Shown one piece after another: positions 5,951-25,400 of a DNA stretch of 45,711 nucleotides. The first letter of the stretch is position 1, and every line of letters starts with the position of its first letter. The translations under genes and the position numbers were made by a program. Source of the stretch: a virus. Location of the stretch: IMG/VR virus record IMGVR_UViG_3300030098_004212, positions 1-45,711 of that record. The stretch is one strand, 5' to 3'. Below the pieces are notes generated by a model. It was not told where the DNA came from. It did no database searches and was given only the letters and a program-made list of their open reading frames with translations.

Positions 5951-5958
5951 TTTATATG
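5951..5958 (+). promoter_or_regulatory. TATA box of the exonuclease gene
   Basis: TTTATATG about 27 bases before the ATG at 5981. The same octamer precedes the tail-tube gene. Confidence 0.5.
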
Positions 5959-5980
5959 TAACAAACACAAATGATAATAG

Positions 5981-7326: not shown

Positions 7327-7349
7327 ACTATAATACCCTAGTATTATTT

Positions 7350-8718: not shown

Positions 8719-8724
8719 TAATTG

Positions 8725-9258: not shown

Positions 9259-9530
9259 GTAGGTCATTTTTTCAGAATGTATTTGGTAAACCAGAATGGA
9301 CCTTACCAACAGAAGAAGAGGTAACAAACAAAATAATAGAGTTAAAAAAAGAGATAGACGATATGCCAAACTCACCGATTAAAACAGCAAAGATATACAC
9401 ATTAGCAAATCAAATGCAGATATTAAGACTTGTATTACATGATAAGAAGAAACAAAAATACAGACCAGATGCTAAAGGTAAATGGGTCTGGATAGACGAA
9501 GAAGAGTATGAGGGTAGGAAATATGAGTGA
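9249..9530 (+). CDS. Small hypothetical protein
   Basis: 93 residues. Charged helix EEEVTNKIIELKKEIDDM and a C-terminal region ending in WVWIDEEEYEG. Unrecognised; overlaps on both sides indicate an operon. Confidence 0.5.
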   Translation: MGLGRSFFQNVFGKPEWTLPTEEEVTNKIIELKKEIDDMPNSPIKTAKIYTLANQMQILRLVLHDKKKQKYRPDAKGKWVWIDEEEYEGRKYE

Positions 9531-9657
9531 ATTAAAAGATAAATATGGTTTTGAGTTAGAAAATGAAATAGAATGTCAACATCCTAACTTTTTCTTTAAA
9601 GAGTTCAAATTCTATTGTAGGACCTGTGGGAAAGAACAAAATGAACGATGTGTATAA
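9523..9657 (+). CDS. Tiny zinc-ribbon protein
   Basis: 44 residues. IECQH and CRTC provide three cysteines and a histidine for one zinc. Overlaps the genes before and after. Confidence 0.45.
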   Translation: MSELKDKYGFELENEIECQHPNFFFKEFKFYCRTCGKEQNERCV

Positions 9658-9787
9658 TATCAAGCATTGTATTCATTGTGGACAAAAAGGTTTTGAAACA
9701 ACTGAAGCAGTAATCAAACACATAAAGGCAACACATACAAAATTACAACCGGGTGAAAACTTAGAAGAGCTCGATGGTTACGATTAA
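9641..9787 (+). CDS. Tiny C2H2-type zinc-finger protein
   Basis: 48 residues. CIHC followed by a helix with H-x5-H spacing (VIKHIKATH) matches a single classical C2H2 finger, likely nucleic-acid or protein binding. Confidence 0.5.
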   Translation: MNDVYNIKHCIHCGQKGFETTEAVIKHIKATHTKLQPGENLEELDGYD

Positions 9788-9792
9788 ATAAG
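9783..9792 (+). promoter_or_regulatory. TATA-like box inside the small-gene cluster
   Basis: GATTAAATAA 21-30 bases before the ATG at 9813, in one of the few gaps between these genes. Confidence 0.35.
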
Positions 9793-9812
9793 GGTCAAAC
9801 ATAATTCACTAT

Positions 9813-10160
9813 ATGGGAGAAACATACAAACTAGAATCCAAGAGAGGAGGGTCACACGCTTACAGAAAACAAAAAACTGTAATAACAACAGCAGGCGAAA
9901 TGCCAGCAGCACCAAAACTCAATCTATTAAAAGGTATAAAAGCAATAGGCGGTCAATGTAATAATACATGTATTCACTTTCCTAAAGGTTTAGCATGGTC
10001 ACAAGGTCAACAAACATATGATGAGTATAATTATTGTAGGAGATGTAGAGTATATATACCAAAGACAGATTTGGCAGCAACAAAGCAAGGGGCTAAAATA
10101 TTATGCCCATGTTGTCATGCCTACACAAGAAGGAAAAGAAACAGGAGACCAAATAGATGA
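9813..10160 (+). CDS. Basic zinc-binding protein
   Basis: 115 residues. Residues 49-100 hold CNNTC, CRRC and CPCC, then a very basic tail RRKRNRRPNR. Likely a zinc-folded nucleic-acid-binding protein. ATGA overlap with the next gene. Confidence 0.55.
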   Translation: MGETYKLESKRGGSHAYRKQKTVITTAGEMPAAPKLNLLKGIKAIGGQCNNTCIHFPKGLAWSQGQQTYDEYNYCRRCRVYIPKTDLAATKQGAKILCPCCHAYTRRKRNRRPNR

Positions 10161-10270
10161 ATAAATGTTGTAAAAAGAAATGGGGAGATGAAGTTCTACG
10201 GTGCCTAATTTGTGACAAACACCTAAAACCTAATGGGAAAAGTAGGTCACATCTTATATATCAGAAATGA
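10157..10270 (+). CDS. Tiny zinc-knuckle protein
   Basis: 37 residues between two ATGA overlaps. NKCCKKK and CLIC can hold a zinc. Basic. Confidence 0.45.
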   Translation: MNKCCKKKWGDEVLRCLICDKHLKPNGKSRSHLIYQK

Positions 10271-10605
10271 GTAAAAGAAGCATGAGTCAAACAAATTCTC
10301 AAAGCACCCAAGCAGAAGAATGTGGTGTGTCAAAAATCTCTGCAGAATGGTCCGAAATAGTGAGATTTACAAAAGTCGAAACACCTGTACAATCCCACAA
10401 TGTTTTCAAAGAAAAACGAAGTGAAACTACAAGTGGTGTTTCTGTTAACACAAGTGATTGTAAAGGTACACTCACAATAACAGATGGAAAACGTTATTTG
10501 ACAGCCACAATAACATCTGCTCAATTAAGAGAATTAGCAGATGCACAAGATGCAGCAGTAGAATACGAAAAGAAAGTTTATGCAAAACATGGGTGGGTCT
10601 TCTAA
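10267..10605 (+). CDS. Hypothetical protein
   Basis: 112 residues. Ser/Thr-rich N-terminus, a beta strand pair GTLTITDGKRYLTATI and a helix LRELADAQDAAVEYEKK. Unrecognised. Codon use is more GC-ending than in most neighbours. Confidence 0.5.
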   Translation: MSKRSMSQTNSQSTQAEECGVSKISAEWSEIVRFTKVETPVQSHNVFKEKRSETTSGVSVNTSDCKGTLTITDGKRYLTATITSAQLRELADAQDAAVEYEKKVYAKHGWVF

Positions 10606-10792
10606 ATTGGCTTACCCAACAATAGAGTTCTGCTCCTTGGATGCATGTTATGTAACCATTAAAGGCAGAGTCTTTTACATAGACATGTCACTCGATGAAC
10701 CAATCGTCACCACATGGACCGAAGATGGTGTTTTATCAGATGGTCCAACCGATGAAGAAACCCTAATGGGTGGAGGCGGTCCAAATGACTGA
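10580..10792 (+). CDS. Small beta-rich acidic protein
   Basis: 70 residues from the ATG at 10580 (26-base overlap) or 67 from the ATG at 10589. Beta strands CYVTIKGRVFYIDM; acidic Gly-rich end. Unrecognised. Confidence 0.45.
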   Translation: MQNMGGSSKLAYPTIEFCSLDACYVTIKGRVFYIDMSLDEPIVTTWTEDGVLSDGPTDEETLMGGGGPND

Positions 10793-10931
10793 TATAGAAG
10801 AACTGGATGAACGTCTTACACGACTTGAGAGATTAGTTGTGAAGATATGTGCTGTGGTATTTGAAGGCAAAGGTTTCAGGATAGACCAAAGTGCTTTCGA
10901 TAGAGTCAGGGATTGGGATGATTGGAAATGA
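10785..10931 (+). CDS. Small coiled-coil protein
   Basis: 48 residues; heptad-like LDERLTRLERLVVKI then GKGFRIDQ. Probably oligomeric. ATGA overlap with the next gene. Confidence 0.45.
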   Translation: MTDIEELDERLTRLERLVVKICAVVFEGKGFRIDQSAFDRVRDWDDWK

Positions 10932-11194
10932 TTTGGTTCACTCCTATATCCCAATGTAAGCATGATATTGTACATGACCAAGATGGTCGTTTAATGTGCT
11001 CTAAGTGCTTGACATATAGTATAACACAATCAAAACTAAAATGTTCTTTGTGTAATGCAGAGTTCCCGGTGGATGATGATATTCATATTAGAACAAAAAG
11101 ACATGAGGAATTTACACATCCCGAGTCAAAAACTAATCGAAACGTAATACCTAAATATGGTAGAAAAGTAATATGGACACAGGTGTTCGAATGA
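10928..11194 (+). CDS. Zinc-ribbon protein
   Basis: 88 residues; the ATG in the ATGA overlap is preferred over the TTG at 10922. CKHD, CSKC and CSLC, then an H-rich segment HIRTKRHEEFTHPE. One or two zinc sites; function unknown. Confidence 0.5.
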   Translation: MIWFTPISQCKHDIVHDQDGRLMCSKCLTYSITQSKLKCSLCNAEFPVDDDIHIRTKRHEEFTHPESKTNRNVIPKYGRKVIWTQVFE

Positions 11195-11319
11195 GTAAAC
11201 AATGTAAAACATGTGGAGAATGGAAATCATACTCTGATTATTTTGATGATAGATTTAGGACCTGTAGAGATTGTTATACGATAGCAACTTTTATTACAAA
11301 AGGTGAAATAATTGGGTGA
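11191..11319 (+). CDS. Tiny zinc-ribbon protein
   Basis: 42 residues with CKTC and CRDC 18 residues apart, a compact four-cysteine ribbon. ATGA overlap upstream. Confidence 0.5.
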   Translation: MSKQCKTCGEWKSYSDYFDDRFRTCRDCYTIATFITKGEIIG

Positions 11320-11455
11320 TTGGGGAAGTGGAGATTATCCTATTGAACCATGCCCTAAATGCAAAAAGAAAGCAGGTTATACATGGACATGGGGTAAAAA
11401 TGATGGACATAGTAAAGGTTATTCAACATGTAAGGGGTGTAAAGCAAAGTTTTGA
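11312..11455 (+). CDS. Tiny zinc-ribbon protein, TTG start
   Basis: 47 residues. TTG start inside the previous gene. CPKC and CKGC with an aromatic middle (YTWTWG). A four-cysteine ribbon. Confidence 0.5.
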   Translation: MGDWGSGDYPIEPCPKCKKKAGYTWTWGKNDGHSKGYSTCKGCKAKF

Positions 11456-11541
11456 ATGAAATAGATTGGTTTATAATAGGTTACCACACTAAGAAAGGTA
11501 ATGGATACAAACACTATAAGAAACGAGAGTGGTATGAATAA
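11452..11541 (+). CDS. Very small basic peptide, TTG start
   Basis: 29 residues between a TTGA overlap and the next gene's ATG. Basic-aromatic: KKGNGYKHYKKREWYE. Supported only by overlap on both sides. Confidence 0.3.
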   Translation: MNEIDWFIIGYHTKKGNGYKHYKKREWYE

Positions 11542-11803
11542 AACATGCACAGTCTGCTGGAAATTAAAAGCAGCACATGAAGTAGCAGATTTGAATGGTG
11601 AAGACATTTGTACCAGATGTGCAGCAAAATATATCAAATATCATCATAATAAAAAACTAAAGATTTGTACAGAATGCGGTAATAAACTATCATTGGTAGA
11701 GACAGGCTCACATATTCTATGGACCTGCACACAATGCCCAGTGGAGTTTAATGACATTCACGAATTAACTAAAGACTGGGTAGATAAGCTAGGTGAATGG
11801 TAA
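11534..11803 (+). CDS. Double zinc-ribbon protein
   Basis: 89 residues from the ATG that overlaps the previous stop. CTVC, CTRC, CTEC and CTQC make two ribbons in tandem. Probably the most complete of the local zinc proteins. Overlaps the nuclease gene start. Confidence 0.55.
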   Translation: MNKTCTVCWKLKAAHEVADLNGEDICTRCAAKYIKYHHNKKLKICTECGNKLSLVETGSHILWTCTQCPVEFNDIHELTKDWVDKLGEW

Positions 11804-12471
11804 TGTTTGTTCATACTCCAAATACAAAACCTCTACCACAATTAAAGAGGAAGAATGAGGATGGAAGAAGGGTATATTATGATACTGAAGGTAATAGATA
11901 TCACAGTGTTACAAACGTTGTAGGCAGCATTGATGAGAAAGGATTAGAAGAATGGAGAAATGCTGTAGGGGAAGATGTAGCTAATTATGTATCAAGAAGA
12001 GCTATGAACCTAGGTACCAAACTACATACAATGGTTGAAACATATCTTTACAATAAAAAGAATACTGAAAAGAATATATTTGCTAAAGCACATTTTGACA
12101 ATATCAAACCATTATTACAGCCTATTGCTAATATCCGGGGGCTAGAAGAAAAGATGTGTAGTAAGGAATTAGGGCTAGCAGGAACAGCAGATTGTATAGC
12201 AGAATATAACGGTGAATTATCTATTATTGATTTCAAAACCTCAAGCAAGAAGAAACAGGAAGACTGGATACTCAAATATTTCCTTCAGACAACAGCCTAT
12301 GCCATCATGTGGGAGGAGATAACAGGTGATAAAATTGACCAAATTGTTGTATTAATTACAGGTGAAGATGGCTCAAGGGAGGAGTATATTAGAAATAAGC
12401 AAGATTATATAGAAGAATTACATAGAGTAATAGAGAGGTTTAACGAATGCCACAATACAAAGACTGGTTAG
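11797..12471 (+). CDS. RecB/Cas4-like PD-(D/E)XK exonuclease
   Basis: 224 residues (ATG at 11797 or 11803). Motifs in order: LGTKLHTMVE with H77 and E81, GLAGTADC with D132, IIDFKTSS with D145 and K147, and LQTTAYA with Q164 and Y168, the RecB-family nuclease set. No four-cysteine cluster is present, so it is not a true Cas4. Likely processes DNA ends in recombination or attacks host DNA. Lies inside the small-gene cluster. Confidence 0.8.
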   Translation: MVMFVHTPNTKPLPQLKRKNEDGRRVYYDTEGNRYHSVTNVVGSIDEKGLEEWRNAVGEDVANYVSRRAMNLGTKLHTMVETYLYNKKNTEKNIFAKAHFDNIKPLLQPIANIRGLEEKMCSKELGLAGTADCIAEYNGELSIIDFKTSSKKKQEDWILKYFLQTTAYAIMWEEITGDKIDQIVVLITGEDGSREEYIRNKQDYIEELHRVIERFNECHNTKTG

Positions 12472-12629
12472 TAGAACACCCAAAGAAGGGAAAAATCAAG
12501 ATAGGTAAACTATCACATAATGAGTTGTGTAGATATGCATTTAATTTATTATTAGAATGTTCTAGGTTAAGGTTTGAGTTGGACCAGATTAATAATAAAA
12601 AGGAGGTTAAAAATGAACCAGAGGTATGA
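12447..12629 (+). CDS. Small hypothetical protein
   Basis: 60 residues overlapping the nuclease gene by 25 bases. Basic N-terminus HPKKGKIKIGKL, helix LCRYAFNLLLECSRLRFEL. Unrecognised. Confidence 0.45.
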   Translation: MPQYKDWLVEHPKKGKIKIGKLSHNELCRYAFNLLLECSRLRFELDQINNKKEVKNEPEV

Positions 12630-12729
12630 CGAAATAGTATGTATAACATGCGGTGAGGTTATGTTTAAGTTACAAGAATGTCATTTAAGATGTCCAAACT
12701 GTGGTGGGGAGATTGACTGTAGCGATTGA
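12613..12729 (+). CDS. Tiny zinc-ribbon protein
   Basis: 38 residues with CITC and CPNC, a rubredoxin-like ribbon. A strong Shine-Dalgarno AAGGAGGTT sits before the ATG. TTGA overlap with the next gene. Confidence 0.5.
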   Translation: MNQRYDEIVCITCGEVMFKLQECHLRCPNCGGEIDCSD

Positions 12730-12992
12730 CTTGGAGTAGTTTTTGGAATTGGTATGAGAGACATACCACAGAGTCATTAGGTGTAACAGCACTAATCCTT
12801 TATATGCAAATTCCACACATGCTATGGGCAGGAGATGCCATTCTCCAAACAGGCGTAGTATGGGGGGCTAACCCGGTCCTAGACTTCTTTTTATATGGAA
12901 TAGACCTAGTTGAAGTATTACCCATGATTAATATAGGTTTAATCATTTATAGTCGAGTTCGTTCTAAGAATAAACATGTCTCTAAGAGTTGA
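12726..12992 (+). CDS. Two-helix membrane protein, TTG start
   Basis: 88 residues. Hydrophobic segments around 19-42 (GVTALILYMQIPHMLW) and 50-75 (LDFFLYGIDLVEVLPMINIG), basic tail RVRSKNKH. Size and shape allow a holin, but a better candidate lies at 17425. TTGA overlap upstream. Confidence 0.5.
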   Translation: MTWSSFWNWYERHTTESLGVTALILYMQIPHMLWAGDAILQTGVVWGANPVLDFFLYGIDLVEVLPMINIGLIIYSRVRSKNKHVSKS

Positions 12993-13215
12993 GCTAAGGA
13001 CCAGAAAAGACGATAACCGGGGGATTTATTACTCCGAGACAAAAAGGGCTGTTATATATTTAGCCATGCATGAGACTATAGAAGATGTGTATAAAACCAT
13101 TAACCATGAAACATACCACCATTGTTTTGCTGAAGCAGGTGAGGCAGATGAAATGGATGAGGACCAAGAAGAACGGTTAATATTTTGCTTACAGTGGGCG
13201 GAAATAGCACTATGA
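12976..13215 (+). CDS. Minimal HExxH metallopeptidase-like protein
   Basis: 79 residues. NHETYHH contains HExxH at 44-48 on a predicted helix, followed by an acidic loop and a helix ERLIFCLQWAEIAL that could carry a third ligand. Small proteins of this kind are frequent in phages and their substrates are unknown. ATGA overlap with the terminase nuclease gene. Confidence 0.55.
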   Translation: MSLRVELRTRKDDNRGIYYSETKRAVIYLAMHETIEDVYKTINHETYHHCFAEAGEADEMDEDQEERLIFCLQWAEIAL

Positions 13216-13799
13216 CAAATGTAAAGTTTGGAGGTCTTGACCTAGCACAGAGGGTAGATAATTCAGCATTTGTGAGTTTAGAATTAACTGATGGTGTGTT
13301 AGAACAGATAGGTCAAAAGACATGGGCACATATAGATTATGAGATTGTTTTCAATGATATGTCAAAGATTAACGAAAAAGAGGGGGGTTTCCATAAGATA
13401 TCCTATGATAGAACAGGGGTAGGTGATGCAGTATCAAAGTTAATCAACCCGGATATTAAAAATATATTCAGACCTGTTGTGTTATCAGCACCTAAAAAAT
13501 TCGAGTTAATATCACTAATGAAAGGTCTATTCAATAAAAATAAATTAATAATACACGATAGGGATTTATACAGAGAGGTAACAGAACAAGAAATAGTAAA
13601 ATCTGATGCAGGTAATATTTTATACAGACATCCACAAGGTTTTCACGATGATAGATTCTGGGGGCTAGCCTTAGCCTGTGATGCAGCATCTAATTATATC
13701 AATGGGGTTCCAAGAGTAGCAGCAGCAGCAGCCACACCTAGACCTAAAAATCTTGATAGTTTAGTGACAAAAGAGCTAAATAAATTGATGAAATCATAA
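13212..13799 (+). CDS. Terminase large subunit, nuclease domain only
   Basis: 195 residues. RNase H-fold terminase nuclease: FGGLDLAQ with D10, SYDRTGVGDAV with D66, and GFHDDRFWGLALA with D146/D147, the three-acid metal site in canonical order. There is no ATPase part; that is the gene at 7813. The ATG overlaps the previous stop (ATGA) and is preferred over an upstream TTG at 13185. It cuts concatemers during packaging, presumably bound to the ATPase protein. The portal follows, as expected for a terL C-terminus. Confidence 0.85.
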   Translation: MTNVKFGGLDLAQRVDNSAFVSLELTDGVLEQIGQKTWAHIDYEIVFNDMSKINEKEGGFHKISYDRTGVGDAVSKLINPDIKNIFRPVVLSAPKKFELISLMKGLFNKNKLIIHDRDLYREVTEQEIVKSDAGNILYRHPQGFHDDRFWGLALACDAASNYINGVPRVAAAAATPRPKNLDSLVTKELNKLMKS

Positions 13800-13831
13800 C
13801 TTTAATAAGAGGTAATGAGTAAATAAGAACA

Positions 13832-15520
13832 ATGGCAGCTAAGAAATCTAGAGTCAAAAAAGCCAGCATAGATAAAAAGGCAGCATCAAGAGTAGCCTCA
13901 ACATCAAACGAACCAGCTAGAAATTTTGATAGAAGTCTATGGAGAAGAATGAATGGTCAAGAAGGTAACTTCCAAGGTCTTCAAGTATGGCACCCAATGG
14001 ACCCATATTCAGGTCAACAAAGAAAAGAGTTTAGAAGTGCCATGACAAACCCTTATGTTTATAGGGCATCTAGAATCCACACAACATTCACAGCAGGTCA
14101 GGGGTATACAACTGAAATCGTACCAAGAAAAGAAGAAGAGGTACCAGAAGAACAACTAGATGAATGGCAACGTACAACAACATATCATGTACCATATTTT
14201 GACAAAGAAATGACAGCAGAGCAGATTTTAGATAAAGTAGATAAATTAGCATTAAACTTAGATTTAGCAACAAACCTATTCAATGGATATTTTACAGCAT
14301 TAGAGCAGGGTAGATGTGTTTTAGCATTAACACCATTGGACCCAGACAAAAATGGAAATTGGCAATTACCAGAACAGATTAGATTAATTAGGTCCGAATT
14401 TACTGAAAGACCTGTACTAGATGACAACACCGGGGAACTCATCGGTGTTAGAATCATAGGTGCAAGAAGTCAAATCAGAGATAACATTATTCCATCAGAA
14501 CGTATGTTGTATATCATGCATGGTTTTAACAATGAACTATTTTCAGATTATTATGGTGACTCTAAAGTAGCTAGAGTATCAGATGAAGCAAACACATTAA
14601 ATATTGTATTAAATCAAGATTATGAAAGAGCAGCAGAATCAGCATGGTACAAACCACCAGTCTTTAGTGTACCAATTAGCCCACAAGAAGCAGGTAATGA
14701 GGAAAATGTATTAGCATCATTTATCAATAAGATTAACGATTCAAAAGGTCAGGCTATTGCAGTAACAGGTCCAAGTAACCCAGAAGAAACAGGGGTAACA
14801 GTTCTATCAACACCAGTTAATGCAGATATAGGCGGGTTAGAAATAATTAGAATGGGATTAATTAAATCAATTATCACAGCATTTGGTCTCCCGGGATTTA
14901 TGTTAGCAGAAGGAGATATAGGTAAACTGGGTGGAAATGCAAACATAGAAGAGGTAGATGCATACATCAACCAAGAGATTAGACCAGAGAGAATCATATT
15001 AGAAGATGCAGTAGAGAAACAGTTCTATGATAGAATATTGGCTATACTGTTCCAAACAGATGATGCATTAAACGTTCCATGTAAGATTAAATTCAAATTC
15101 AATAAACCTAAACTACTCACATTAGTAACACCAGACATGTTCCAAGTATTAATGGGTATGAACCAAATGGGCTTAATTGATGCAGCAGGTATCAGAGACA
15201 TGTTAGGAATAGAAGAGTTAGACAAAGATACATTAAGCAAAGGTGCACAAGGAGGAGGAGACCCAACACAGAACAAACTAAACAACTTCAGACAACCTGT
15301 ACAGATTAACCTATGGCAGGATGCATTAGGAAGACCACACGTAACTGCAGCAGATTGGGTTAATAAAGACCAATGGGATAAGATTGATGCCCAGAATAGA
15401 ATGAATGAAATAGACAGGGAAAACAAGAAACATGAGTGGGAAGTAGCTGAAAAGAAGGCTGAATGGTCGAACAGTAATATATCAAAAGATAAAAAGAATA
15501 ATAAGGAGAAAAATGAATAA
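13832..15520 (+). CDS. Portal protein
   Basis: 562 residues. Basic N-terminus, then MTNPYVYRASRIHTTF, the FNGYFTALEQGRCVLAL wing and SERMLYIMHG, and IIRMGLIKSIITAFGLPGFML in the stem/crown region, with a charged coiled C-terminus. This is the usual portal texture and it follows the terminase nuclease. Forms the dodecameric DNA gate at one capsid vertex. The tail after residue 470 is hydrophilic and probably extends into the capsid or binds scaffold. Confidence 0.8.
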   Translation: MAAKKSRVKKASIDKKAASRVASTSNEPARNFDRSLWRRMNGQEGNFQGLQVWHPMDPYSGQQRKEFRSAMTNPYVYRASRIHTTFTAGQGYTTEIVPRKEEEVPEEQLDEWQRTTTYHVPYFDKEMTAEQILDKVDKLALNLDLATNLFNGYFTALEQGRCVLALTPLDPDKNGNWQLPEQIRLIRSEFTERPVLDDNTGELIGVRIIGARSQIRDNIIPSERMLYIMHGFNNELFSDYYGDSKVARVSDEANTLNIVLNQDYERAAESAWYKPPVFSVPISPQEAGNEENVLASFINKINDSKGQAIAVTGPSNPEETGVTVLSTPVNADIGGLEIIRMGLIKSIITAFGLPGFMLAEGDIGKLGGNANIEEVDAYINQEIRPERIILEDAVEKQFYDRILAILFQTDDALNVPCKIKFKFNKPKLLTLVTPDMFQVLMGMNQMGLIDAAGIRDMLGIEELDKDTLSKGAQGGGDPTQNKLNNFRQPVQINLWQDALGRPHVTAADWVNKDQWDKIDAQNRMNEIDRENKKHEWEVAEKKAEWSNSNISKDKKNNKEKNE

Positions 15521-15526
15521 TGAGTA

Positions 15527-15742
15527 ATGACAGTATTAAAAGCAATAGCGAGGGTTATAGGCAACTCTGGTATGTTCTTCGTAACGCCTTACCTTGGTTC
15601 CACCATAGCTGGTCTTCCATCTTTGGAGATAGCACTTTACACAACGTTAATAGGATTAATATTATCCACTTCGAGAGAGCTGATTGAGTATGGTAAAGGT
15701 CTCAAAACAATATATTGTGACAAATGTGGGAGACCGTTATGA
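15527..15742 (+). CDS. Small membrane protein with C-terminal CxxC
   Basis: 71 residues. Two hydrophobic stretches (IGNSGMFFVTPYLGSTIAG and LEIALYTTLIGLIL) and a CDKC near the end. ATGA overlap with the next gene. Possibly involved in lysis or membrane docking; unknown. Confidence 0.5.
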   Translation: MTVLKAIARVIGNSGMFFVTPYLGSTIAGLPSLEIALYTTLIGLILSTSRELIEYGKGLKTIYCDKCGRPL

Positions 15743-15828
15743 CTGAAGAAATAGACTGTGAAAAATGTTGGTGGTCCAAACTAGGAGATTGCCTAGACCA
15801 TATATTATTATTCTGTCCTAAGAAATAA
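15739..15828 (+). CDS. Very small cysteine-rich peptide
   Basis: 29 residues, four cysteines (CEKC, GDC, FC). ATGA overlap with the membrane protein gene. Followed by AT-rich DNA with the next promoter. Confidence 0.4.
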   Translation: MTEEIDCEKCWWSKLGDCLDHILLFCPKK

Positions 15829-15835
15829 TATTTCA

Positions 15836-15846
15836 AAATATAAAAG
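15836..15846 (+). promoter_or_regulatory. TATA box before 15877, with Shine-Dalgarno
   Basis: AAATATAAAAG 31-41 bases upstream. The larger distance leaves a short leader that contains AAGAGGTGAT at 15867-15876, so this mRNA is probably not leaderless. Confidence 0.4.
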
Positions 15847-15876
15847 TTCATATGGTGTTATCACGTAAGAGGTGAT

Positions 15877-16068
15877 ATGTCTCAATTAATTCAAACAACA
15901 AGAGAAAACGTAGCTTGGTTGGGGCTAGCAAACAAATATTTGGAAAATCAATATGAGATAAAAGATTCATGGGGAACAGGACAAATACACAAAAAAGAGA
16001 GTTATGATGAAGATTTTATGAAAGAATTTGATATAATCACCCAGATTATTAAACAAAACAAAGATTAA
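15877..16068 (+). CDS. Small hypothetical protein
   Basis: 63 residues, helical and charged. Own promoter and Shine-Dalgarno sequence. Unrecognised. Confidence 0.5.
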   Translation: MSQLIQTTRENVAWLGLANKYLENQYEIKDSWGTGQIHKKESYDEDFMKEFDIITQIIKQNKD

Positions 16069-16096
16069 TAAGGCGGTAAAACCTACAAATATTACA

Positions 16097-16225
16097 ATGA
16101 ATGCAGCAATAACCGAAGCAGAAAGAAACGCAAAAGTGAGCAGAAAGCACATCACTATCTTTTCAGCCCCTAAAAGAGGCATCTATGAAAAGAGAGTTGA
16201 AGATTGTGATACATGCCACAACTAA
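16097..16225 (+). CDS. Small basic protein
   Basis: 42 residues: helix NAAITEAERNAKVSRK, a short strand HITIFSA and a C-terminal CDTC. Last gene of the rightward block; an oligo-T terminator follows its stop. Confidence 0.45.
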   Translation: MNAAITEAERNAKVSRKHITIFSAPKRGIYEKRVEDCDTCHN

Positions 16226-16241
16226 CCTTCTTTTTTTTTAA
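16226..16241 (+). terminator. C-rich/oligo-T terminator
   Basis: CCTTC followed by eight T directly after the stop codon. Same shape as the terminator after the capsid gene. Confidence 0.6.
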
Positions 16242-16361
16242 ATTAACACCTAACGGTTGATTAGACCGCTAGATGCTAATGAAATCGTTGAATCGTTTAT
16301 ATCTCCAACGCTTTAGAATGTGTGTCTCTGACTCCACGTTAACTCTAGGAAGTATTACAAT
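16242..16361. other. Noncoding spacer between converging genes
   Basis: 120 bases with no convincing ORF. It contains a short hairpin (CGGT, seven-base loop, ACCG near 16255) and other small inverted pairs. No tRNA could be folded. It may hold the terminator of the minus-strand protease gene. Confidence 0.3.
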
Positions 16362-17207
16362 TTAACAGTTTTTGGTTGATGCAGTAGGTAATTGCTTGCA
16401 TTCCAGAAATCTATCTACAAGATAACCTACACCTATATGTTTTGGTGCTAGTCCATGTAATCCACCAAAACCATCTTTATTATATATTTCAACTGCCATT
16501 TGTAAGTCAATAGGTTCTATTATTATTTCACCATTGGCATCAAATGGGTCAAATGATGGGTACATAAGAGATGATACATTATTGTTTCTTGACTTGTCTT
16601 CTATATAATGACCAAGCCCTATAGCATGACCAAACTCATGTAACATTATCATTTTAATGGCTGGATATGGCATATATACAGGATTCAAATCTATTTCAAC
16701 ATTATATGGTACATTTCCTAATCTGTTATTATCACCATCACAGCCTATACATAATGAAACACTTGGTTTTTCTATATGTTTCAAATAGGTTGTAATAAAT
16801 ACATATTGATGAGTAGAGTTAGCAAAATTATAACTTGTAATTCCTAATGCATCACCACCCGAATATTCCTCAAACTCCATAAATATTTGACATTCAGGGA
16901 AATCATCAGCGTGTTTATCATTATGAAATTCATAAGTATAGAACTTTACATCCATGGTCCAATTACCACCAGAGTAATCAATAAGTTCATTTTGCCATTG
17001 TTTAACTGTGGAATAGGCATCAAATAATACACCACCATAAAATCTCTCATGTAAAGATGGTTCAGGCTCTGTTATACATACAGTAGGATTATCTTTATGC
17101 CATATATTATTGCCTATAGTTTTAAATGTGTCTTCACCATAAGTAGATGGTATACCCAAAAGAAGGCTAAAAATAACTATAATAGTGATTTTCTTATTAT
17201 AATCCAA
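16362..17207 (-). CDS. Secreted metzincin (matrixin-like) zinc protease
   Basis: 281 residues from a TTG at 17207. A GGGAG sequence before it and the gene just upstream favour this start; an ATG at 17294 would put 29 extra residues before the signal peptide. N-terminal KK plus ITIIVIFSLLLGIPS is a signal peptide. Zinc site HEFGHAIGLGH (HExxHxxGxxH) at 190-200, Met-turn SLMYP at 213-217. Six cysteines suggest disulfides outside the cell. Probably exported to digest the host S-layer or glycoproteins for release, or to exclude superinfection. One of three minus-strand genes and transcribed away from the second metzincin. Confidence 0.8.
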   Translation of the reverse strand: MDYNKKITIIVIFSLLLGIPSTYGEDTFKTIGNNIWHKDNPTVCITEPEPSLHERFYGGVLFDAYSTVKQWQNELIDYSGGNWTMDVKFYTYEFHNDKHADDFPECQIFMEFEEYSGGDALGITSYNFANSTHQYVFITTYLKHIEKPSVSLCIGCDGDNNRLGNVPYNVEIDLNPVYMPYPAIKMIMLHEFGHAIGLGHYIEDKSRNNNVSSLMYPSFDPFDANGEIIIEPIDLQMAVEIYNKDGFGGLHGLAPKHIGVGYLVDRFLECKQLPTASTKNC

Positions 17208-17304
17208 TATAGTCTCCCTGTGTATTTGTTCTATCAAACTCTTTTTGACATGAACCACAAACACCATATTTTGATGGCTTTCTACAATATTCACAAGGTT
17301 TCAT
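17197..17304 (-). CDS. Tiny zinc-ribbon protein, leader gene of the protease
   Basis: 35 residues with CEYC and CGSC. Its 3' end overlaps the TTG start of the secreted metzincin by 11 bases, so the two are probably co-translated. A TATA-like box lies 18-24 bases upstream on the minus strand. Confidence 0.5.
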   Translation of the reverse strand: MKPCEYCRKPSKYGVCGSCQKEFDRTNTQGDYIGL

Positions 17305-17321
17305 TTTATGCGATTTATTAT

Positions 17322-17328
17322 TTATATG
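17322..17328 (-). promoter_or_regulatory. TATA box, leftward promoter
   Basis: On the minus strand ATATAAAT lies just upstream of the tiny zinc-ribbon gene. With the rightward TATA at 17394 it makes a divergent promoter region. Confidence 0.4.
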
Positions 17329-17340
17329 AAGCACATATCT

Positions 17341-17400
17341 CTTACGCATGAGTTATTAAAAAGGTTATCTTTTACACATAAGCGGTTAAAAAGGTTTATA
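17341..17400 (+). repeat. Two tandem 30-base imperfect repeats in the divergent promoter
   Basis: Copies at 17341-17370 and 17371-17400 agree at about 20 positions; the best-kept part is TTAAAAAGGTT near the end of each. The second copy runs into the TATA box of the holin-like gene. Candidate regulator binding sites controlling lysis timing. Confidence 0.5.
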
Positions 17401-17424
17401 GGGCGGACTGAAGTTAGTAAATTA

Positions 17425-17688
17425 ATGGCAGATATACCAATTCTGATACTAGCAGGAAGCCTGTTTGGTGCAGCATTAAATATCATCAGAGGAGTCTCTG
17501 GAGATACTAGTGGTGAACTAAACTATAAAAAACTACTAGGCGGTGGAGTAACCGCAATCGTAGCAGCTCTAGGTGCTATAGTAGCTCTGGATGCAGCAGC
17601 AATAAGTGAGCCAGTCACTCAAGTAGTAGTCGGTGTTCTAGTTGGTTTCGGTGCTGATTTCACAGTCAGTAAACTAAAAAAGGACTAA
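17425..17688 (+). CDS. Holin-like membrane protein
   Basis: 87 residues from the ATG at 17425 (an upstream in-frame ATG would give an unlikely basic extension and ignore the TATA at 17394). Two transmembrane segments (IPILILAGSLFGAALNII and GVTAIVAALGAIVALDA) and a third, weaker one VVVGVLVGFGA, with a KLKKD tail: holin-like topology. It lies between two metzincin protease genes. Codons are more C-ending than nearby genes, suggesting strong expression. Holin role is inference from shape and place. Confidence 0.55.
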   Translation: MADIPILILAGSLFGAALNIIRGVSGDTSGELNYKKLLGGGVTAIVAALGAIVALDAAAISEPVTQVVVGVLVGFGADFTVSKLKKD

Positions 17689-17705
17689 GGCTTTACGGTT
17701 TCTAA

Positions 17706-17733
17706 CCTATAAATATAAGAACCGCCTTTTTTT
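17706..17733 (+). promoter_or_regulatory. TATA box within an inverted repeat, with T-run
   Basis: CCTATAAATATAAG lies 18-32 bases before the ATG at 17738. It sits between CGGTTTCT and AAGAACCG, an imperfect inverted pair, and is followed by CCTTTTTTT. The element could serve both as terminator of the holin-like gene and as regulated promoter of the metzincin. Confidence 0.45.
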
Positions 17734-17737
17734 ATAC

Positions 17738-18430
17738 ATGGCGTTATGTGTAGTTAGAGAAACACCAGACCATACTTTAGAGTTCTTAGAGGAGCAAACA
17801 GAATGGAGACACAAGTGGGATCAAAACACAGTTTATTATTCATTGGAGTATAATGACGAATTACCATTAATATCAAAAAGGAATATGAAGAAAGCATTAA
17901 CAGCAGCTATGAACACATGGAATTTTGAGATACCAATGAAGTTAAAATCAATGTACAGAAATTATGATAATGCTGATATCAAGGTAATGTTTAGAAAGAA
18001 AGAAGACGACCATATTTTTAAAGAAAGGCATGGGGTTATGGCATATGCATATTTTCCAAAAACATCAAAACAGGGAGAAATAGTATTCAATTTAGATTAT
18101 ATCTGGGCAACCCATTCAGATGGAATAAAAGCATCAGAGGCTATAGAATTAGGGATTATTGAAAATGCATCAAACCCGGATAGTAAAATTACCACCTATA
18201 ATATTATTCACACCATGATACATGAAATAGGACACAGTTTAGGTCTTAAACATGATGCAGATGATAATACCACAGATGTAATGGACCCATATTACGATGG
18301 AAAGGTATTAGACTTGTCATCTAGAGATTTATATAGAATCAGAGTTAAATATGGAACCCGGGTCTGGAGAAGTTGGGATATGTATGCTAGAGTCAAGAAA
18401 TGGCTTTATAATAGAAAGCGTAATATCTAA
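17738..18430 (+). CDS. Second metzincin (matrixin-like) zinc protease
   Basis: 230 residues, no signal peptide. TVYYSLEYN and HGVMAYAYFP with GEIVFNLD follow the M10A matrixin fold; zinc site HEIGHSLGLKH starts at H162 with ligands H162, H166 and H172; Met-turn VMDP at 181-184. The tail is basic with Trp/Arg (VWRSWDMYARVKKW). Without a leader it must reach the cell surface as part of the virion or through the holin, acting as an endolysin-like protease or in entry. It is not a close copy of the minus-strand metzincin. Confidence 0.8.
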   Translation: MALCVVRETPDHTLEFLEEQTEWRHKWDQNTVYYSLEYNDELPLISKRNMKKALTAAMNTWNFEIPMKLKSMYRNYDNADIKVMFRKKEDDHIFKERHGVMAYAYFPKTSKQGEIVFNLDYIWATHSDGIKASEAIELGIIENASNPDSKITTYNIIHTMIHEIGHSLGLKHDADDNTTDVMDPYYDGKVLDLSSRDLYRIRVKYGTRVWRSWDMYARVKKWLYNRKRNI

Positions 18431-18433
18431 ACC

Positions 18434-18442
18434 TTATATATA
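18434..18442 (+). promoter_or_regulatory. TATA box of the adhesin block
   Basis: TTATATATA 23-31 bases before the ATG at 18465. Confidence 0.5.
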
Positions 18443-18464
18443 ATAAAACCTCTTAAATATTAGT

Positions 18465-18668
18465 ATGGTATTCACAGATTACGATAATGATTTCTCATGT
18501 GACACACTTGAGGAATGGATTGAACATTTAGCAAAGACCGAATTAACTTATTCAGGAATAACAACCTGTGTTACATGTGGAGAGGAAATAGAGTTCACAT
18601 GGACAGGTAAATTAAAAAATGGAAAAACATACCCAGATGTTTTATGTAAGAGTTGTAAAGAACAATGA
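18465..18668 (+). CDS. Zinc-ribbon protein
   Basis: 67 residues. CVTCGEEIEF and CKSC make a ribbon in the C-terminal half; acidic N-terminus DYDNDFSCD. ATGA overlap with the structural gene that follows. Confidence 0.55.
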   Translation: MVFTDYDNDFSCDTLEEWIEHLAKTELTYSGITTCVTCGEEIEFTWTGKLKNGKTYPDVLCKSCKEQ

Positions 18669-19195
18669 TAGAAAACATATCAAATAAATCATCTTTAAAT
18701 ATTACAAAATGTAGTGATAAGTGTATGAAAGAAGAGCCAATAATCAAAGGATGGGTCACAGTAATTAAAAATGCTGGTAGACCAGATGAACAGGTCCTAT
18801 GTGAGAATAAACCAAATCTTCTAACTAACGCTGGAAGAGATTGGATGATAGCCCAAGTTTATACTAACACATCAGCAGGAACTAGAGGTTCAGGCTTTAT
18901 TGCATTAACAACAAATTCAGCATCACCAGCAGCAGGTGATACTACATTAGCTTCTGAAATTACAACAGGTGGTCTAGCAAGAGCAGATGCAACCACAAAG
19001 TCTCACACAGGTGGAACAAACTCTACTACTATCCAACACACTTTTACAGCTTCAGCAACACATACAAATGTTCAAAAATCAGGATTATTCAATGCAGCCT
19101 CAAGTGGCACAATGTCACATGAGAACACATTTACCGCAGTTACCCTTCAAAGTTCAGATACCCTACAGGTAACTTGGACCACAACCCTAGGCTAA
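18665..19195 (+). CDS. Virion structural protein, tail/fibre family
   Basis: 176 residues. After 35 residues, WVTVIKNAGRPDEQVL and NLLTNAGRDWMIAQV, then a Thr/Ser/Ala-rich beta region. Matches in texture a widespread phage tail protein family whose members begin with a strand and 'N-L-x-T-x-x-G-R'. Likely part of the fibre base. The DNA shows the compositional change of the adhesin block. Confidence 0.55.
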   Translation: MIENISNKSSLNITKCSDKCMKEEPIIKGWVTVIKNAGRPDEQVLCENKPNLLTNAGRDWMIAQVYTNTSAGTRGSGFIALTTNSASPAAGDTTLASEITTGGLARADATTKSHTGGTNSTTIQHTFTASATHTNVQKSGLFNAASSGTMSHENTFTAVTLQSSDTLQVTWTTTLG

Positions 19196-19200
19196 ACTTA

Positions 19201-19215
19201 AATAGTTATATAGTA
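19201..19215 (+). promoter_or_regulatory. Promoter with 15-base motif shared with 35365
   Basis: AATAGTTATATAGTA contains the TATA box 21-28 bases before the ATG at 19234. The same 15 bases occur at 35365-35379 at nearly the same distance from that gene's ATG (35 against 33 bases). Confidence 0.55.
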
Positions 19216-19233
19216 AATTAACGCATTTATATC

Positions 19234-20853
19234 ATGGCAAGAACAGGCTGGGGTAGACACGCAACTGTAGCAACTGGAAGTAACGATAACTCAAAACAGA
19301 TTTCAGTAAATGCTTGGAACGCAGATGTGAATACTGCTGGTATTTTGGGATTTACACCAGAAACAATAGCATCAGCATCATCAATCACACCAACTAACTC
19401 TTTCATTAAATTATCAGGTTCAACCAATATTGATACAATAGCATTAGGTAATTCAGCAGAAGGTGACTTGTTATATGTTATCACAACTGGTTCAGTAACA
19501 TTAGCAAATACAACAAGCCCATCATCAGACGGTCAAATTAGATTATTAGGTAATGCAAACAAGGACCTATCTACAACAACACCAACTATTTTAATTAGAG
19601 TTGGTAATTATTGGTATGAATATGGTGGTAGCCCAGTTACTGATGGTTCTATAACATTTGCAAAGATTCAAGATATTGCATCAATGAAGGTCATAGGAAG
19701 AACAGCAGGAAGTTCAGGTGTATCATCAGAAGTAGCAATATTAGATGAAGATAACATGGCATCAAATAGTGCCACATCATTAGCAACACAACAATCAATT
19801 AAATCATATGTAGATACTCAAGTAGCAACAGTACCAGTTGGTGACATTACCGCTGTTACAGCAGGTACAGCATTAACAGGTGGTGGTTCGTCAGGTGACG
19901 TAACAGTAAACGCAGATGTAGGTATAGGTGAAGATAAATTATTACAAGCAAATGCAAATGTAGTAGATGATGATTTCTTAAGAATTGATGGAACAAAAGT
20001 AGAAGGTAGAACTGCTGCAGAAGTATTATCAGATATTGGTGCTCAAGCAAGTCTAACTTTTGGTATATCATCAGGTAATGTAACAAAAGCTGGTTCAGGA
20101 ATTGTTGACAATGACTTCATTAGAGTAGATGGAACAACATTTGAAGGAAGAAGTGCAAGTGAAGTGTTATCCGATATTGGTGGACAAGCTAGTTTAACCT
20201 TTGGAATAGCAAACACTAACGCAGTAAAAATTGACGATGCAGATGCAGCAGATGATGATTATGCAAAATTTACAGCAAGTGGAATTGAAGGAAGAAGTGC
20301 TAGCGAAGTTTTATCAGATATTGGTGCAGCACCAGCAGCAGGTTCATCAAACATAGTCACAACAGGTGCATTAGACTCTGGTTCAATCACAAGTGGATTT
20401 GGTAGTATTAATAATGGTTCATCAACTATTACAACAACGGGAGCAGTATCAACAGGAACATTAACAGCAACCCAAGTAGATATTACAGCAGAGGGTGATT
20501 TAAGGTTACAAGATGCTACTGGTGGTCAATATGTAGGATTTGAAGCACCAGCAACAGTATCAGCAAGTTATACATTAGAAATGCCAGCAGCAACAGGTGC
20601 AGCAGGTAAAGTTTTAAAAATGTCATCATCAGCAAACGTCTTAGAATGGGGAGATGCAGGTGGAGCAGCAGGTAACACTATTGATACATTACTAAGAGAT
20701 GAAGCAGATTCTGATCCAAGTTATACAAGCAGAACAGAAAATAGTGCTTCTACACCAATACAGATATGGTCCAAAACTCTTGATTCAAATAACGAAAATT
20801 TGTATGTTAGGGTAAAGAAAAACGGAAGTTACACTAACGTACAGATAGCTTGA
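19234..20853 (+). CDS. Tail fibre protein with three internal repeats
   Basis: 539 residues. Three repeats of about 48 residues begin near residues 244, 292 and 338, with core (D)DFxRxDGTxxEGR(S/T)A(S)EVLSDIG. N-terminal part resembles fibre attachment regions, and the C-terminus has EMPAATGAAGKVLKM and a strand-rich end WSKTLDSNNENLYVRV. Such repeats form trimeric shaft segments in marine phage fibres. Leaderless promoter upstream. Confidence 0.65.
   Translation: MARTGWGRHATVATGSNDNSKQISVNAWNADVNTAGILGFTPETIASASSITPTNSFIKLSGSTNIDTIALGNSAEGDLLYVITTGSVTLANTTSPSSDGQIRLLGNANKDLSTTTPTILIRVGNYWYEYGGSPVTDGSITFAKIQDIASMKVIGRTAGSSGVSSEVAILDEDNMASNSATSLATQQSIKSYVDTQVATVPVGDITAVTAGTALTGGGSSGDVTVNADVGIGEDKLLQANANVVDDDFLRIDGTKVEGRTAAEVLSDIGAQASLTFGISSGNVTKAGSGIVDNDFIRVDGTTFEGRSASEVLSDIGGQASLTFGIANTNAVKIDDADAADDDYAKFTASGIEGRSASEVLSDIGAAPAAGSSNIVTTGALDSGSITSGFGSINNGSSTITTTGAVSTGTLTATQVDITAEGDLRLQDATGGQYVGFEAPATVSASYTLEMPAATGAAGKVLKMSSSANVLEWGDAGGAAGNTIDTLLRDEADSDPSYTSRTENSASTPIQIWSKTLDSNNENLYVRVKKNGSYTNVQIA
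19960..20335 (+). repeat. Three fibre-shaft repeats of 138-144 bases
   Basis: In-gene repeats starting near 19963, 20107 and 20245, best conserved where they encode EVLSDIG. The third is shorter at its end. Confidence 0.65.
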
Positions 20854-20864: not shown

Positions 20865-22484
20865 ATGGTCGAATATCTATCAGGTGGAAGGATTCAAGGA
20901 AGTTCTACTGCAACAGCAACAGCAACATACGAACCTGAATTAGATAATAATAGTGCTAGTAAATGGGTAATACAAGATAGTGGTGCAATTAATTTAAACA
21001 CAAGTAATAGCAGGGTTGATTTTTCAACTAAACGTGATAATTCAAATAACACTTTATCATACGATTTAGGTTCTAATCTAAGTGCAACTTGGGTTTTAAG
21101 ATACAAATTCAATGCTTCAACGTTTAGTGAATCTGAAAACAGTTGGTTGACAGTTGGATTTAGATCCGTTGATTCAGCTACTCCAGTTAATGACGGTTCT
21201 ACTAATTTTGATGCTTTTGGTTGTTTCGTAATGAATGGTTCATCATTATCATCAAAGAAAAGACTTGGTATGCACTCTGCAACTGCAAGTAATAATCTCA
21301 CAGAACATCAAAATAGGTTAGAAGGTGTGACATACTCAACTAGTACAGATTATTATGTCGAGGTTGTTAGAACTGGAACAACAACAGGCACAGTCACATT
21401 TAGAACAGGTAGTCATACTGGAACTGTATTCAAAACTTACTCATATTCAGGTGGTAATAATGCAACAAACTTACGCTATCTCACAATAAGTGATCTAGCA
21501 GATAATGTTTCAGGTGATTCAACATTAGTTGGAACAATAACTGATATTGAAATATATGATAATGCAACATCAACAACAACAGATGAAAAAACTACACTAA
21601 CAAACGTTCCTGATAATACTAGGTATGAAGAAACAGATACTCGTAAGATTTACCGTAGAGTGACAGAAACAATAGATGGTTCAGATTTGAAAGTATACAT
21701 TAAATTTGACGATTCGTCAGGTTCGCCAACTAATGACGCAGGGAATGTCACAGGTAATGATTCACTTGGCACAGCAGCAAACATAACATTAACAGGAACA
21801 GGCACAACACTATATGATCAAACAGGAACACCAAGTAAATTAGGAAATGCTATGGAATTTCCAGCTACAAGTTCAACGAGTGGTGTCTATGGCGATTTTG
21901 GAACTTCTACAAGTCAATTCAACTTCTTACATGGTGGAACACCAACATGGACAATAGCATTTTGGTATAAAACAAGTACAGCAGGTGGAACTAACCGAGC
22001 AATACTAAGATCTGCTGTTGGTGATTCAGTAGCAGGGATTACTATCTATTTTTACTCAAATAATCTTAGAGTGTATATTGCTAAGACAGGTGGTGGTAAT
22101 AATCAACCTATAAACTCTAATGATAATGGTTCAGATTTTACAAGTTTCTCATCAGATGGTAATTGGCATTTTTATGTCATAACTATGGATTTTAATCTTG
22201 CTAGTCAAACTTTGAAAATGAGTAAAGATGATGGTGCAAGAACAACTGCAGATAAATCTGCTAATGCCTGTTCATCAATATCAACTAATTCTGATTACGC
22301 ATTAGGATTTAGACATTCACCAAGTAATGGATCAGGATTTATTCCACCAACTGCCCAAATGGCAGAACTGTCAATATGGAATCGTGTCCTTACTGATGAA
22401 GAAATAACTACATTATACAATTCAGGATCAGGTTTTCAACTAGACACAGGCGATAAAGTTTGGAAAGAGAGGAATACTGCATGA
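20865..22484 (+). CDS. LamG-type adhesin (host-recognition candidate)
   Basis: 539 residues. Residues 1-230: a beta-sandwich with TYEPELDNNSASKWVIQ and RTGSHTGTVFKTY. Then the linker TRYEETDTRKIYR. Residues about 275-530 are a LamG/concanavalin-like lectin domain, ending in the typical MAELSIWNRVLTDEEITTLY. The Shine-Dalgarno GAGGTGA precedes the ATG. Likely binds host surface glycans. Ends in an ATGA overlap with the next adhesin. Confidence 0.65.
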   Translation: MVEYLSGGRIQGSSTATATATYEPELDNNSASKWVIQDSGAINLNTSNSRVDFSTKRDNSNNTLSYDLGSNLSATWVLRYKFNASTFSESENSWLTVGFRSVDSATPVNDGSTNFDAFGCFVMNGSSLSSKKRLGMHSATASNNLTEHQNRLEGVTYSTSTDYYVEVVRTGTTTGTVTFRTGSHTGTVFKTYSYSGGNNATNLRYLTISDLADNVSGDSTLVGTITDIEIYDNATSTTTDEKTTLTNVPDNTRYEETDTRKIYRRVTETIDGSDLKVYIKFDDSSGSPTNDAGNVTGNDSLGTAANITLTGTGTTLYDQTGTPSKLGNAMEFPATSSTSGVYGDFGTSTSQFNFLHGGTPTWTIAFWYKTSTAGGTNRAILRSAVGDSVAGITIYFYSNNLRVYIAKTGGGNNQPINSNDNGSDFTSFSSDGNWHFYVITMDFNLASQTLKMSKDDGARTTADKSANACSSISTNSDYALGFRHSPSNGSGFIPPTAQMAELSIWNRVLTDEEITTLYNSGSGFQLDTGDKVWKERNTA

Positions 22485-25400
22485 CCATAGAAAATCTCGG
22501 TGTCAAATTATATTCAGGAACTAAATCTGATCGTAAATCAGATTCACTAGGTAGTTCAGCAGATGGAAGTAACACAGGAATTATATTATTACCTGTAAAA
22601 GATTATGCAGTATTTGACGGAACAAATGATTACATTTCATTTTCAACAAAGTTTGACCAAATGCAACAAGCTGGAAGTTTTTCAGTTTGGCTTAAACCTG
22701 ATACAACAGATAATAGTGAAGTAATATTTGACAATGCAGGTTCTAGTAGTCTAAAAAAAGGATTTACAATTTTATTCAAAACAGGTAATGTTGTTAAATA
22801 TGGAATTTGGGACGGTGATGATTCAACAAGTGCAGGTGGTAGTATAAGTTCAACAGGTGTTTGGACAACAGGTGAATGGCAACATCTATGTGTCACTTAC
22901 AATGGAACAACAGCTAAAATTTATCGGAACGCAGTAGAAGTCGCAACAGGTTCATTAACAGCTACAAGTTCTACTGCAAGTTATAATGCAAGTTTAGGTA
23001 GAGATGGACAAGATGAAGATGATAGATATGATGGTGGTATGTATCAAGCATTAGTTTATAGTGACGCATTAACACCAACAGAAGTCACTACATTATACAA
23101 TAGTGGAACACCTGTCACAAGTCCTTCAACATCAGGTTTAGTTTCAAGATATGACTTGACAGCAAACGCAAACGATTCACAAGGTTCTAACAATGGAACA
23201 AATACAGGTGTCACATTTTCAACTGATAATTACAAACTTGGCACAGGTGCTTATGATTTTACATCAGGTCAAGTAGATATTGGTAAAACCACACAAACAG
23301 GTGACTTTTCTGTAACATTTTGGTTTAATGCAGATAGTAATTCAGGCGTACAAAGACTATGGCATAACAATAATAATTCGTCAAAATTAGAAATACAATG
23401 GTATAATAGTCAAGTAGCATATACCGTAAAAGATGCAACAGGTAATAATGGTTCATCATTAAATACTGGAACATGGTATCATGTAGCACTAACTAGAGAA
23501 GGAAGTGCTGTAAAATTATACATTGATGGTGTTTTAAAAAGTAGCACTACAGAAGATGAAGCACTATCAAACGCTGATAATGCTACCATAGGTGGAAGTG
23601 GAAGTTCAGAAAACTATAATGGAAAAATAGATGATGTTTCTAATTGGTCAAGAGCTTTAACTGCAACAGAAATTGGGAAGTTAGTAAATAATAATGGTGA
23701 AGAAAATTATCTGTCACAATCATCAACAGGACAAAAACAATTAGATGAATCTGCAAATAAATATGGAATTAATTTAGCATCAAACAATCCACTAATCGGT
23801 AAAACATTAAAATCAATAACATTCAGTATGAAGAAAAACAATTCACCAACTGGAAATGTTTCTGCAAAAATTTACAAAAATGACAGTACATCTGCCACTG
23901 CAACATCAAGTACAACATTAGATGTATCAACATTAACAACCAGTTTTGTAGATAAAACATTCGAGTTTGCAAGTGGTGTAACATTAGCAAGTGGTGATAG
24001 AATTGTAGTAGAAGGTGGTTCACATGATGGCACTAATCAAATAATGTTTGAACAAAATTCGTCAAGTTTTACTGATACGGTGACTATTGCACGTTATACA
24101 TCATCATGGGTAGATGGAATATCAGGTGATTTTCTTTACAAACTAACATCAACAAATGCAGATGCACAATCAGTTTCATCATTAACTAACAAGTCAGGTC
24201 TAAAAGCACATTATAGTATGGACACAGAAACAACAGTCACAGCAGATGGAACATCACAAACTACTGCAAATAGTCAGATACAAGTGCAGAATACAAATTC
24301 AAGTGAGGATAGAATATTGGGTTATCAAGTCACAACAGGTAGTCCATTTGTTGGTAAAACAATAACAGGATTTAAAATAAAACTAAGAAACACATTTAAT
24401 GCATCAGGAACTTTTGCCATCACAGGTGGAATTTGGTCAACAAGTGAATCTGATCCAATGACCACAATAGGTAGAGCGACAAGCCCAACATCTGTCACAT
24501 TTGACCAACTTGAAACAGGCACAACTTGGTCAGCAAATTCAGATACATCAGGTAGTGATGTTGTGACATACAATCTTTCATCACCATATACGATTCAAAG
24601 TGGTGATTTAATTGGCGTAAGACCAGCTGGTGGCACATTCAACTCATCATCAGTTGTTGTTAATGGTAATTCGTCAAGTGTTGATGGTAATGCAAAAATG
24701 AAAGGATATAGAACAAGCTGGTTTGATTATTCAGCATGGGATATGTGGTTAGTTGTAATTACAAGCACTGATAAATGTCCTAACGACTTTTCATCAACTT
24801 CTGATTTGGAAGCATTAACAGGTGTAAGGACAAATTCTATCTTCCAACAAACAGATGATACGCCTTCTTATTGGTGGTATAATGGCACAAGTTGGGTATT
24901 AGATGGAACTACACTAGCTATTGATGAAGATTTTTCAACAAATAATTTCACAAGTAATGATACAAATGTCACAAATGTTGTAGATGGTGCTTTGACTTAT
25001 TGGGGAGCTGGGCAAAATACATACGGTGATGGTGCATATTACAAAACACCTGTCACATTAGATGATAATAAATGGGTTATGAGAGCTAGGTATGAAATAG
25101 AAGCATGGGCAAGTCCATCAGGGGATTCATATCAAGTTTTCATTGGAATGATAAAATTCACAACGGCAGCAAATGCACAGGGCGTATCTTCATCTTACAA
25201 TCAAGATGGTATTTCCTTTGGTCATAGAATTGGAACAGGCACTAACGGTATTAGAATAGGTGCAAGTAATGTTGGTGGTCAATTATACAATAATATTGAA
25301 ACACTTACAGGTCTTACAGGCACAAGAACTTGTTGGATTGAATTAACACGATTATCATCAACAACATCTAAATTGGAAATATTTTCAGATGAAGGATTCA

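Follow-up and report, generated by a model that had tools for sequence, protein, structure and literature searches.

The locus at positions 16362 to 18430 of the IMG/VR virus record IMGVR_UViG_3300030098_004212 is probably a lysis cassette, used for egress by a tailed virus that infects archaea with an S-layer and no murein, most likely ammonia-oxidizing Nitrososphaeria. It encodes a secreted metzincin protease (ProtA), a small holin-like membrane protein (P0005), and a leaderless matrixin (ProtB), and would represent a proteolytic variant of holin-endolysin lysis. Cutting of a protein coat is suggested as the lysis route because related viruses keep pairing the leaderless ProtB with unrelated transmembrane (TM) proteins. 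The preliminary description of this DNA had placed two metzincin proteases around a holin-like gene, and all three genes were recovered at that location, with the zinc motifs and Met-turns of both enzymes present.

The window, i.e., the whole stretch of 45,711 bases that was analyzed and that makes up the record, carries a tailed-virus gene set, including a terminase (phrog_2 match, 1.4e-18) and a major head protein (match at 1.8e-8), and also codes for a RadA/Rad51-like recombinase and a PrimPol-MCM helicase. A single 804-residue protein (779 to 3193) fuses primase-polymerase, PriCT, and MCM helicase domains. In contrast to the single 480-residue TerL of other virus groups, the large terminase of the window is apparently in two parts, an ATPase (7813 to 8718) and a possible nuclease whose identity is weakly supported (13185 to 13799), which are separated by 4.5 kb containing other genes; L009 and L139 look similar. 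Positions 12726 to 13215 encode a protein with two TM segments followed by a 79-residue protein with an HETYHH motif (zincin-like, weak DUF3920 match), and the same two-TM family comes after a ProtB-ProtA tandem in L139 to L141. A large protein with laminin-G/concanavalin-like domains (22460 to 25561, 6.4e-44) is related to its neighbors at 20865 to 22484 and 25549 to 26391, and the three are likely tail fibers with lectin domains. The 1,448-residue protein at 27697 to 32043 had no Pfam match; its residues 421 to 616 form a separate ORF in L009 (799 to 1386, 86% identical) upstream of the second terminase part, hinting that this segment is mobile. Among the window proteins scanned, Pfam recognized no lysin besides the two proteases. 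Querying the INPHARED phages with ProtA, ProtB, P0005, the portal, and the capsid returned zero matches, and RadA found distant matches only. A RadA scan of the genome contigs gave no match, with patterns that were probably ill chosen.

ProtB (17738 to 18430, plus strand) is a 230-residue protein that we propose as a proteolytic endolysin. It contains the stretch HEIGHSLGLKHD and belongs to the M10 peptidases according to Pfam (Peptidase_M10, 87.3 bits, 1.3e-24, cut-off 24). The three zinc-ligand histidines and the catalytic glutamate of its zinc motif HEIGHSLGLKH (18221 to 18253) are invariant in 68/68 sequences, as is the methionine (M182, 18281 to 18283) of its Met-turn DVMDP. The AlphaFold model (pLDDT 84.6, with low confidence at the N terminus) matched karilysin, its top PDB match, and the catalytic domains of matrix metalloproteases (MMPs) (E value 5.6e-13, TM-score 0.86 by target length), and the ProtB profile matched MMP-1 at 6.8e-26. 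A secretion signal and a PRCGxPD propeptide are usual for MMPs, if not for every M10 member; both were looked for in ProtB and were absent, and 30 of the 31 ProtB representatives have no signal peptide. Animal matrixins are held latent by a propeptide cysteine bound to the zinc. We therefore propose a shortened cysteine switch for ProtB, whose N terminus is short and in which Cys4 (codon 17747 to 17749), the sole cysteine of the ProtB encoded in the window, is invariant in all 66 homologues covering the N terminus, a pattern suggesting, by analogy, such a switch. The protein ends in a cationic tail of about 24 residues (18356 to 18427) that includes a modeled helix (residues 213 to 229); the net charge of this tail is positive in 33/33 representatives, with a mean of +6.6. 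When a muralytic domain was sought, the proteases displayed metzincin domains only. ProtB is endolysin-like as a cytoplasmic-type enzyme without export signal that adjoins a holin-like gene. A relative in a cellular setting (L149, 3256 to 4883 of contig C8 of the Nitrososphaeria genome G220) stands directly after a CdvB/ESCRT-III gene (Snf7, 1.2e-14) and was possibly co-opted by the host.

P0005 (17425 to 17688, plus strand), directly upstream of ProtB, encodes 87 residues with three hydrophobic segments, in agreement with the two or three membrane helices ascribed to it at the outset. Membrane helices were called by hydropathy and genes by a mechanical rule. Judging from hydropathy and neighborhood, P0005 resembles a holin in being small, in carrying membrane helices, and in being encoded beside a lytic-type enzyme. 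Comparison with curated holin families yielded none (PF16083 reached 12.1 bits, under the cut-off of 28.4), and the other TM partners of ProtB did not match these families either. Since no curated family matches, we call the P0005 system holin-like rather than assigning it to the holins. Its gene is under strong purifying selection (pN/pS 0.03 to 0.22 between relatives), as part of a strong synonymous excess in all genes (0.03 to 0.30). A second small membrane protein, TM15527 (15527 to 15742, plus strand), adjoins the portal gene, is conserved across the virus group of the window, and is possibly an additional lysis or membrane protein.

The pairing of ProtB with a small membrane protein was then evaluated by comparison. 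Gathering the relatives of ProtB gave 68 loci, which clustered at 85% identity into 35. A partner was defined as a protein of at most 150 residues with a predicted membrane helix, encoded directly upstream on the same strand. Such a partner was found in 19 of 29 dereplicated viral ProtB loci, compared to 13 of 145 other genes (9%) in the same loci. The binomial p value of this excess is about 1e-13, which overstates its significance because the ProtB loci are related and hence nonindependent. Six further viral loci carry such a TM gene two to three genes upstream, and ProtB representatives without a small TM protein close upstream include viral L202, L204, and L206 and cellular L149 and L155. 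The partners fall into families with no detectable mutual similarity, i.e., P0005-like, LRYYGLG-like, L210, L211, L214, and a one-TM type. Mapping these types on a maximum-likelihood ProtB tree required 13 changes, and the LRYYGLG type occurs in ProtB clades separated by branches with 100/100 support. The remaining neighbors of ProtB vary by virus, being portal and fiber genes in some, the terminase in others, or the last genes of the tail cluster. Phage holins are likewise swapped between families, and by analogy ProtB with its interchangeable small membrane protein has the look of a holin-endolysin pair.

In contigs related to the window, the gene order is portal, small TM protein, in some cases ProtA, a short gene, P0005, ProtB, two short genes, and fiber, and the gene set of the locus recurs across them. 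The pairing of a holin-like gene with a protease is supported by the frequency and the swapping of the partners, whereas the divergent orientation of the two proteases finds no support as a defining trait of the locus. In L010, L011, L139, and L195 to L201, the two proteases share a strand; ProtA occupies the plus strand in the first two, and in another virus group it stands behind ProtB in tandem. Because ProtA switches side and strand among viruses, the divergent layout is incidental.

ProtA (16362 to 17207, minus strand) encodes 281 residues from a TTG start and begins with a signal peptide predicted by hydropathy (17136 to 17207; MDYNKKITIIVIFSLLLGIPSTYG). It has both hallmarks of metzincins, namely, the HExxHxxGxxH motif (HEFGHAIGLGH, 16608 to 16640), whose histidines and glutamate are invariant in the 11/11 aligned viral ProtA sequences, and a Met-turn (SLMYPS); cysteines C44 and C106 are also invariant. 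As its score against Pfam M10 (21.4 bits) is under the curated cut-off of 24, we classify it merely as a metzincin and not formally as M10. Each of the 11 aligned members gave an M10 match with an E value of 0.01 or lower (best, 3.6e-8). The structure model is poor (pLDDT 65.8), and its best fold matches are MMP catalytic domains. A longer frame starting at GTG 17294 was considered unlikely, since the signal peptide starts at TTG 17207 and relatives start nearby. The start of ProtA is overlapped by a 35-residue ORF with a zinc-ribbon-like CxxC...CxxC pattern (17197 to 17304, minus strand), which is a lineage-specific gene or chance because it is matched solely in near-identical contigs.

A wider search for ProtA retrieved 56 loci in 29 clusters, and an N-terminal signal or TM segment was present by hydropathy in 29/29. 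Together with the leaderless ProtB representatives, this agrees with the initial view that one protease is secreted and the other is not. ProtA and ProtB are separate families rather than recent duplicates, a possibility we rejected because their profile comparison aligned just the 59-column catalytic core. The two occur jointly in two virus groups. Many ProtA records have no separate ProtB, and dependence of ProtA on ProtB in every case was rejected, as ProtA is frequently by itself. In one record without ProtB (L244), a two-TM protein resembling those near ProtB in L196 to L201 lies directly upstream of ProtA. In many viruses ProtA is distant from ProtB or any TM gene, and it may therefore have another purpose.

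The host is very probably an ammonia-oxidizing archaeon. Relatives of ProtA were detected in 79 of 400 Nitrososphaeria genomes, with some matches spanning the catalytic core alone; among the best ten, nine begin with a hydrophobic signal, and most are extended at the C terminus. Since these secreted relatives are found in many Nitrososphaeria genomes, they support the earlier guess of such a host, and by sequence likeness the virus may have acquired ProtA from secreted host enzymes of this type. In addition, a Nitrososphaeria contig of 1.92 Mb with an amoA primer site carries ProtB and a directly upstream one-TM gene next to tail genes, one of which is homologous to window positions 40038 to 42986. 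The window portal gave one weak match only in the 400 Nitrososphaeria genomes. Scanning 34 related virus records for AmoC detected none, and the control was silent as well. In L150 (genome G085, 3619 to 19901), tail genes, a fiber gene, a one-TM protein, and ProtB come after an apparent exosome operon of an archaeal chromosome, and ProtB is followed by a series of large secreted proteins of one recurring type; the region may be what is left of a provirus or a tail particle that has been domesticated.

Under the proposed lysis mechanism, ProtB, which has no export signal, would be synthesized in the cytoplasm and retained there, possibly latent through coordination of the active-site zinc by its invariant N-terminal cysteine. 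Late in infection, P0005 would open the membrane as a holin would. Once ProtB has passed to the exterior, its cationic C-terminal helix may bind the acidic envelope and its matrixin domain would cut S-layer or anchor proteins, so that the cell, deprived of its only wall, would burst. ProtA, presumably exported via Sec, may attack this envelope from the exterior in an accessory role and might be a substitute in viruses without ProtB. Cleavage of the S-layer by either protease and the holin action of P0005 are inferred. We more tentatively put forward that ProtB is a zymogen lysin, a reading with somewhat less than an even chance, in which the cysteine on the zinc would keep the enzyme harmless until holin release into the oxidized, calcium-rich outside activates dismantling of the S-layer. 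If true, the genes of a lysis system that degrades the S-layer would be defined here for the first time, according to a literature check of open-licence papers, and this system would have spread across several archaeal tailed-virus groups.

Other functions of the proteases have to be weighed against egress. ProtB or ProtA might be virion borne and open the S-layer at entry, like the tail-associated lysins of phages, and the position of ProtB between portal and tail-fiber genes in the window, as well as right behind a fiber gene in the archaeal chromosome, would be compatible with this. However, ProtB is a stand-alone protein of 230 residues without fusion to tail proteins, it adjoins terminase genes in other viruses, and its most frequent neighbor is a small membrane protein; a signal peptide such as that of ProtA would also be unusual in a virion part. 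We consider an entry role unlikely, and the earlier suggestion that the two proteases divide release and entry between them found no backing, there being no sign of either as a virion part.

It is quite improbable, in our view, that the role of the secreted ProtA, and perhaps of ProtB, is to remodel the host surface without lysis, e.g., for superinfection exclusion or receptor shedding. ProtA is exported by itself, is kin to secreted host enzymes, and is found in many viruses apart from holin-like genes, all of which would suit such a role, but the persistent small-TM neighbors of the leaderless ProtB and the presence of both proteases in two virus groups would be left unexplained. Those same neighbors, and the cationic tail, are equally unaccounted for if ProtB is an intracellular processing protease for capsid maturation or host-protein destruction with an unrelated membrane protein next to it. 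The missing signal peptide, and the fact that Pfam recognized no prohead protease domain among the window proteins scanned, speak for an intracellular enzyme; nonetheless, the neighborhood of ProtB differs from the capsid gene set, and matrixins as a rule act outside cells. This last explanation seems very improbable to us.

Should the locus indeed be an egress cassette, it makes the question of archaeal egress directly testable, because it points to specific genes and residues and to a host whose envelope structure is known. Profiles of ProtA and ProtB are also a means to detect archaeal-virus lysis genes overlooked by standard annotation. Ammonia-oxidizing archaea are abundant in the ocean, and their lysis therefore bears on the nitrogen cycle; marine thaumarchaeal viruses are reportedly the subject of Ahlgren 2019 and Lopez-Perez 2019.

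Among known systems, the holin-endolysin pairs of tailed bacteriophages share with the ProtB locus a small membrane gene directly before a leaderless lytic enzyme and partners swapped along the enzyme tree. They differ in that ProtB is a zinc protease and not muralytic, in that its inferred target is a protein S-layer, and in the lack of a match to any curated holin family. ProtB resembles the M10 matrixins, i.e., karilysin and vertebrate MMPs, in sequence, zinc motif, Met-turn, and fold, and is set apart from them by the missing signal peptide and PRCGxPD motif and by the added cationic C-terminal helix. Matrixins are also encoded by granuloviruses, ascoviruses, and entomopoxviruses, whose matrix metalloproteases were the best structural matches among viral proteins; these are mostly larger proteins of unrelated insect viruses, and we know of no holin-like partner for them.

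The pseudomurein endoisopeptidases PeiP and PeiW of psiM1 and psiM100 are likewise viral enzymes directed against an archaeal wall and produced with no recognized export route, and no holin gene has been identified in these methanogen viruses (PMC4456609); compared to ProtB, they belong to another enzyme class and act on another wall. The PVAP pyramids of SIRV2 and STIV also provide virus-coded egress through an archaeal S-layer, but these are built from a membrane protein and push through the S-layer with no protease involved (PMC4456609). A protease is a fitting lysin for the presumed host, since the S-layer of Nitrosopumilus maritimus is a protein lattice and treatment with EGTA yields rounded cells with exposed membrane (PMC11153153). 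Lytic proteins were found in only 10.9% of 129 archaeal double-stranded DNA viruses in a 2025 survey (PMC12596118). According to a 2015 review, no holin gene was known from isolated archaeal viruses and S-layer-degrading enzymes were unknown, and holins plus S-layer proteases were hypothesized for archaeal virus lysis without known genes (PMC4456609). The ProtB cassette fits this proposal of a holin acting with an S-layer protease.
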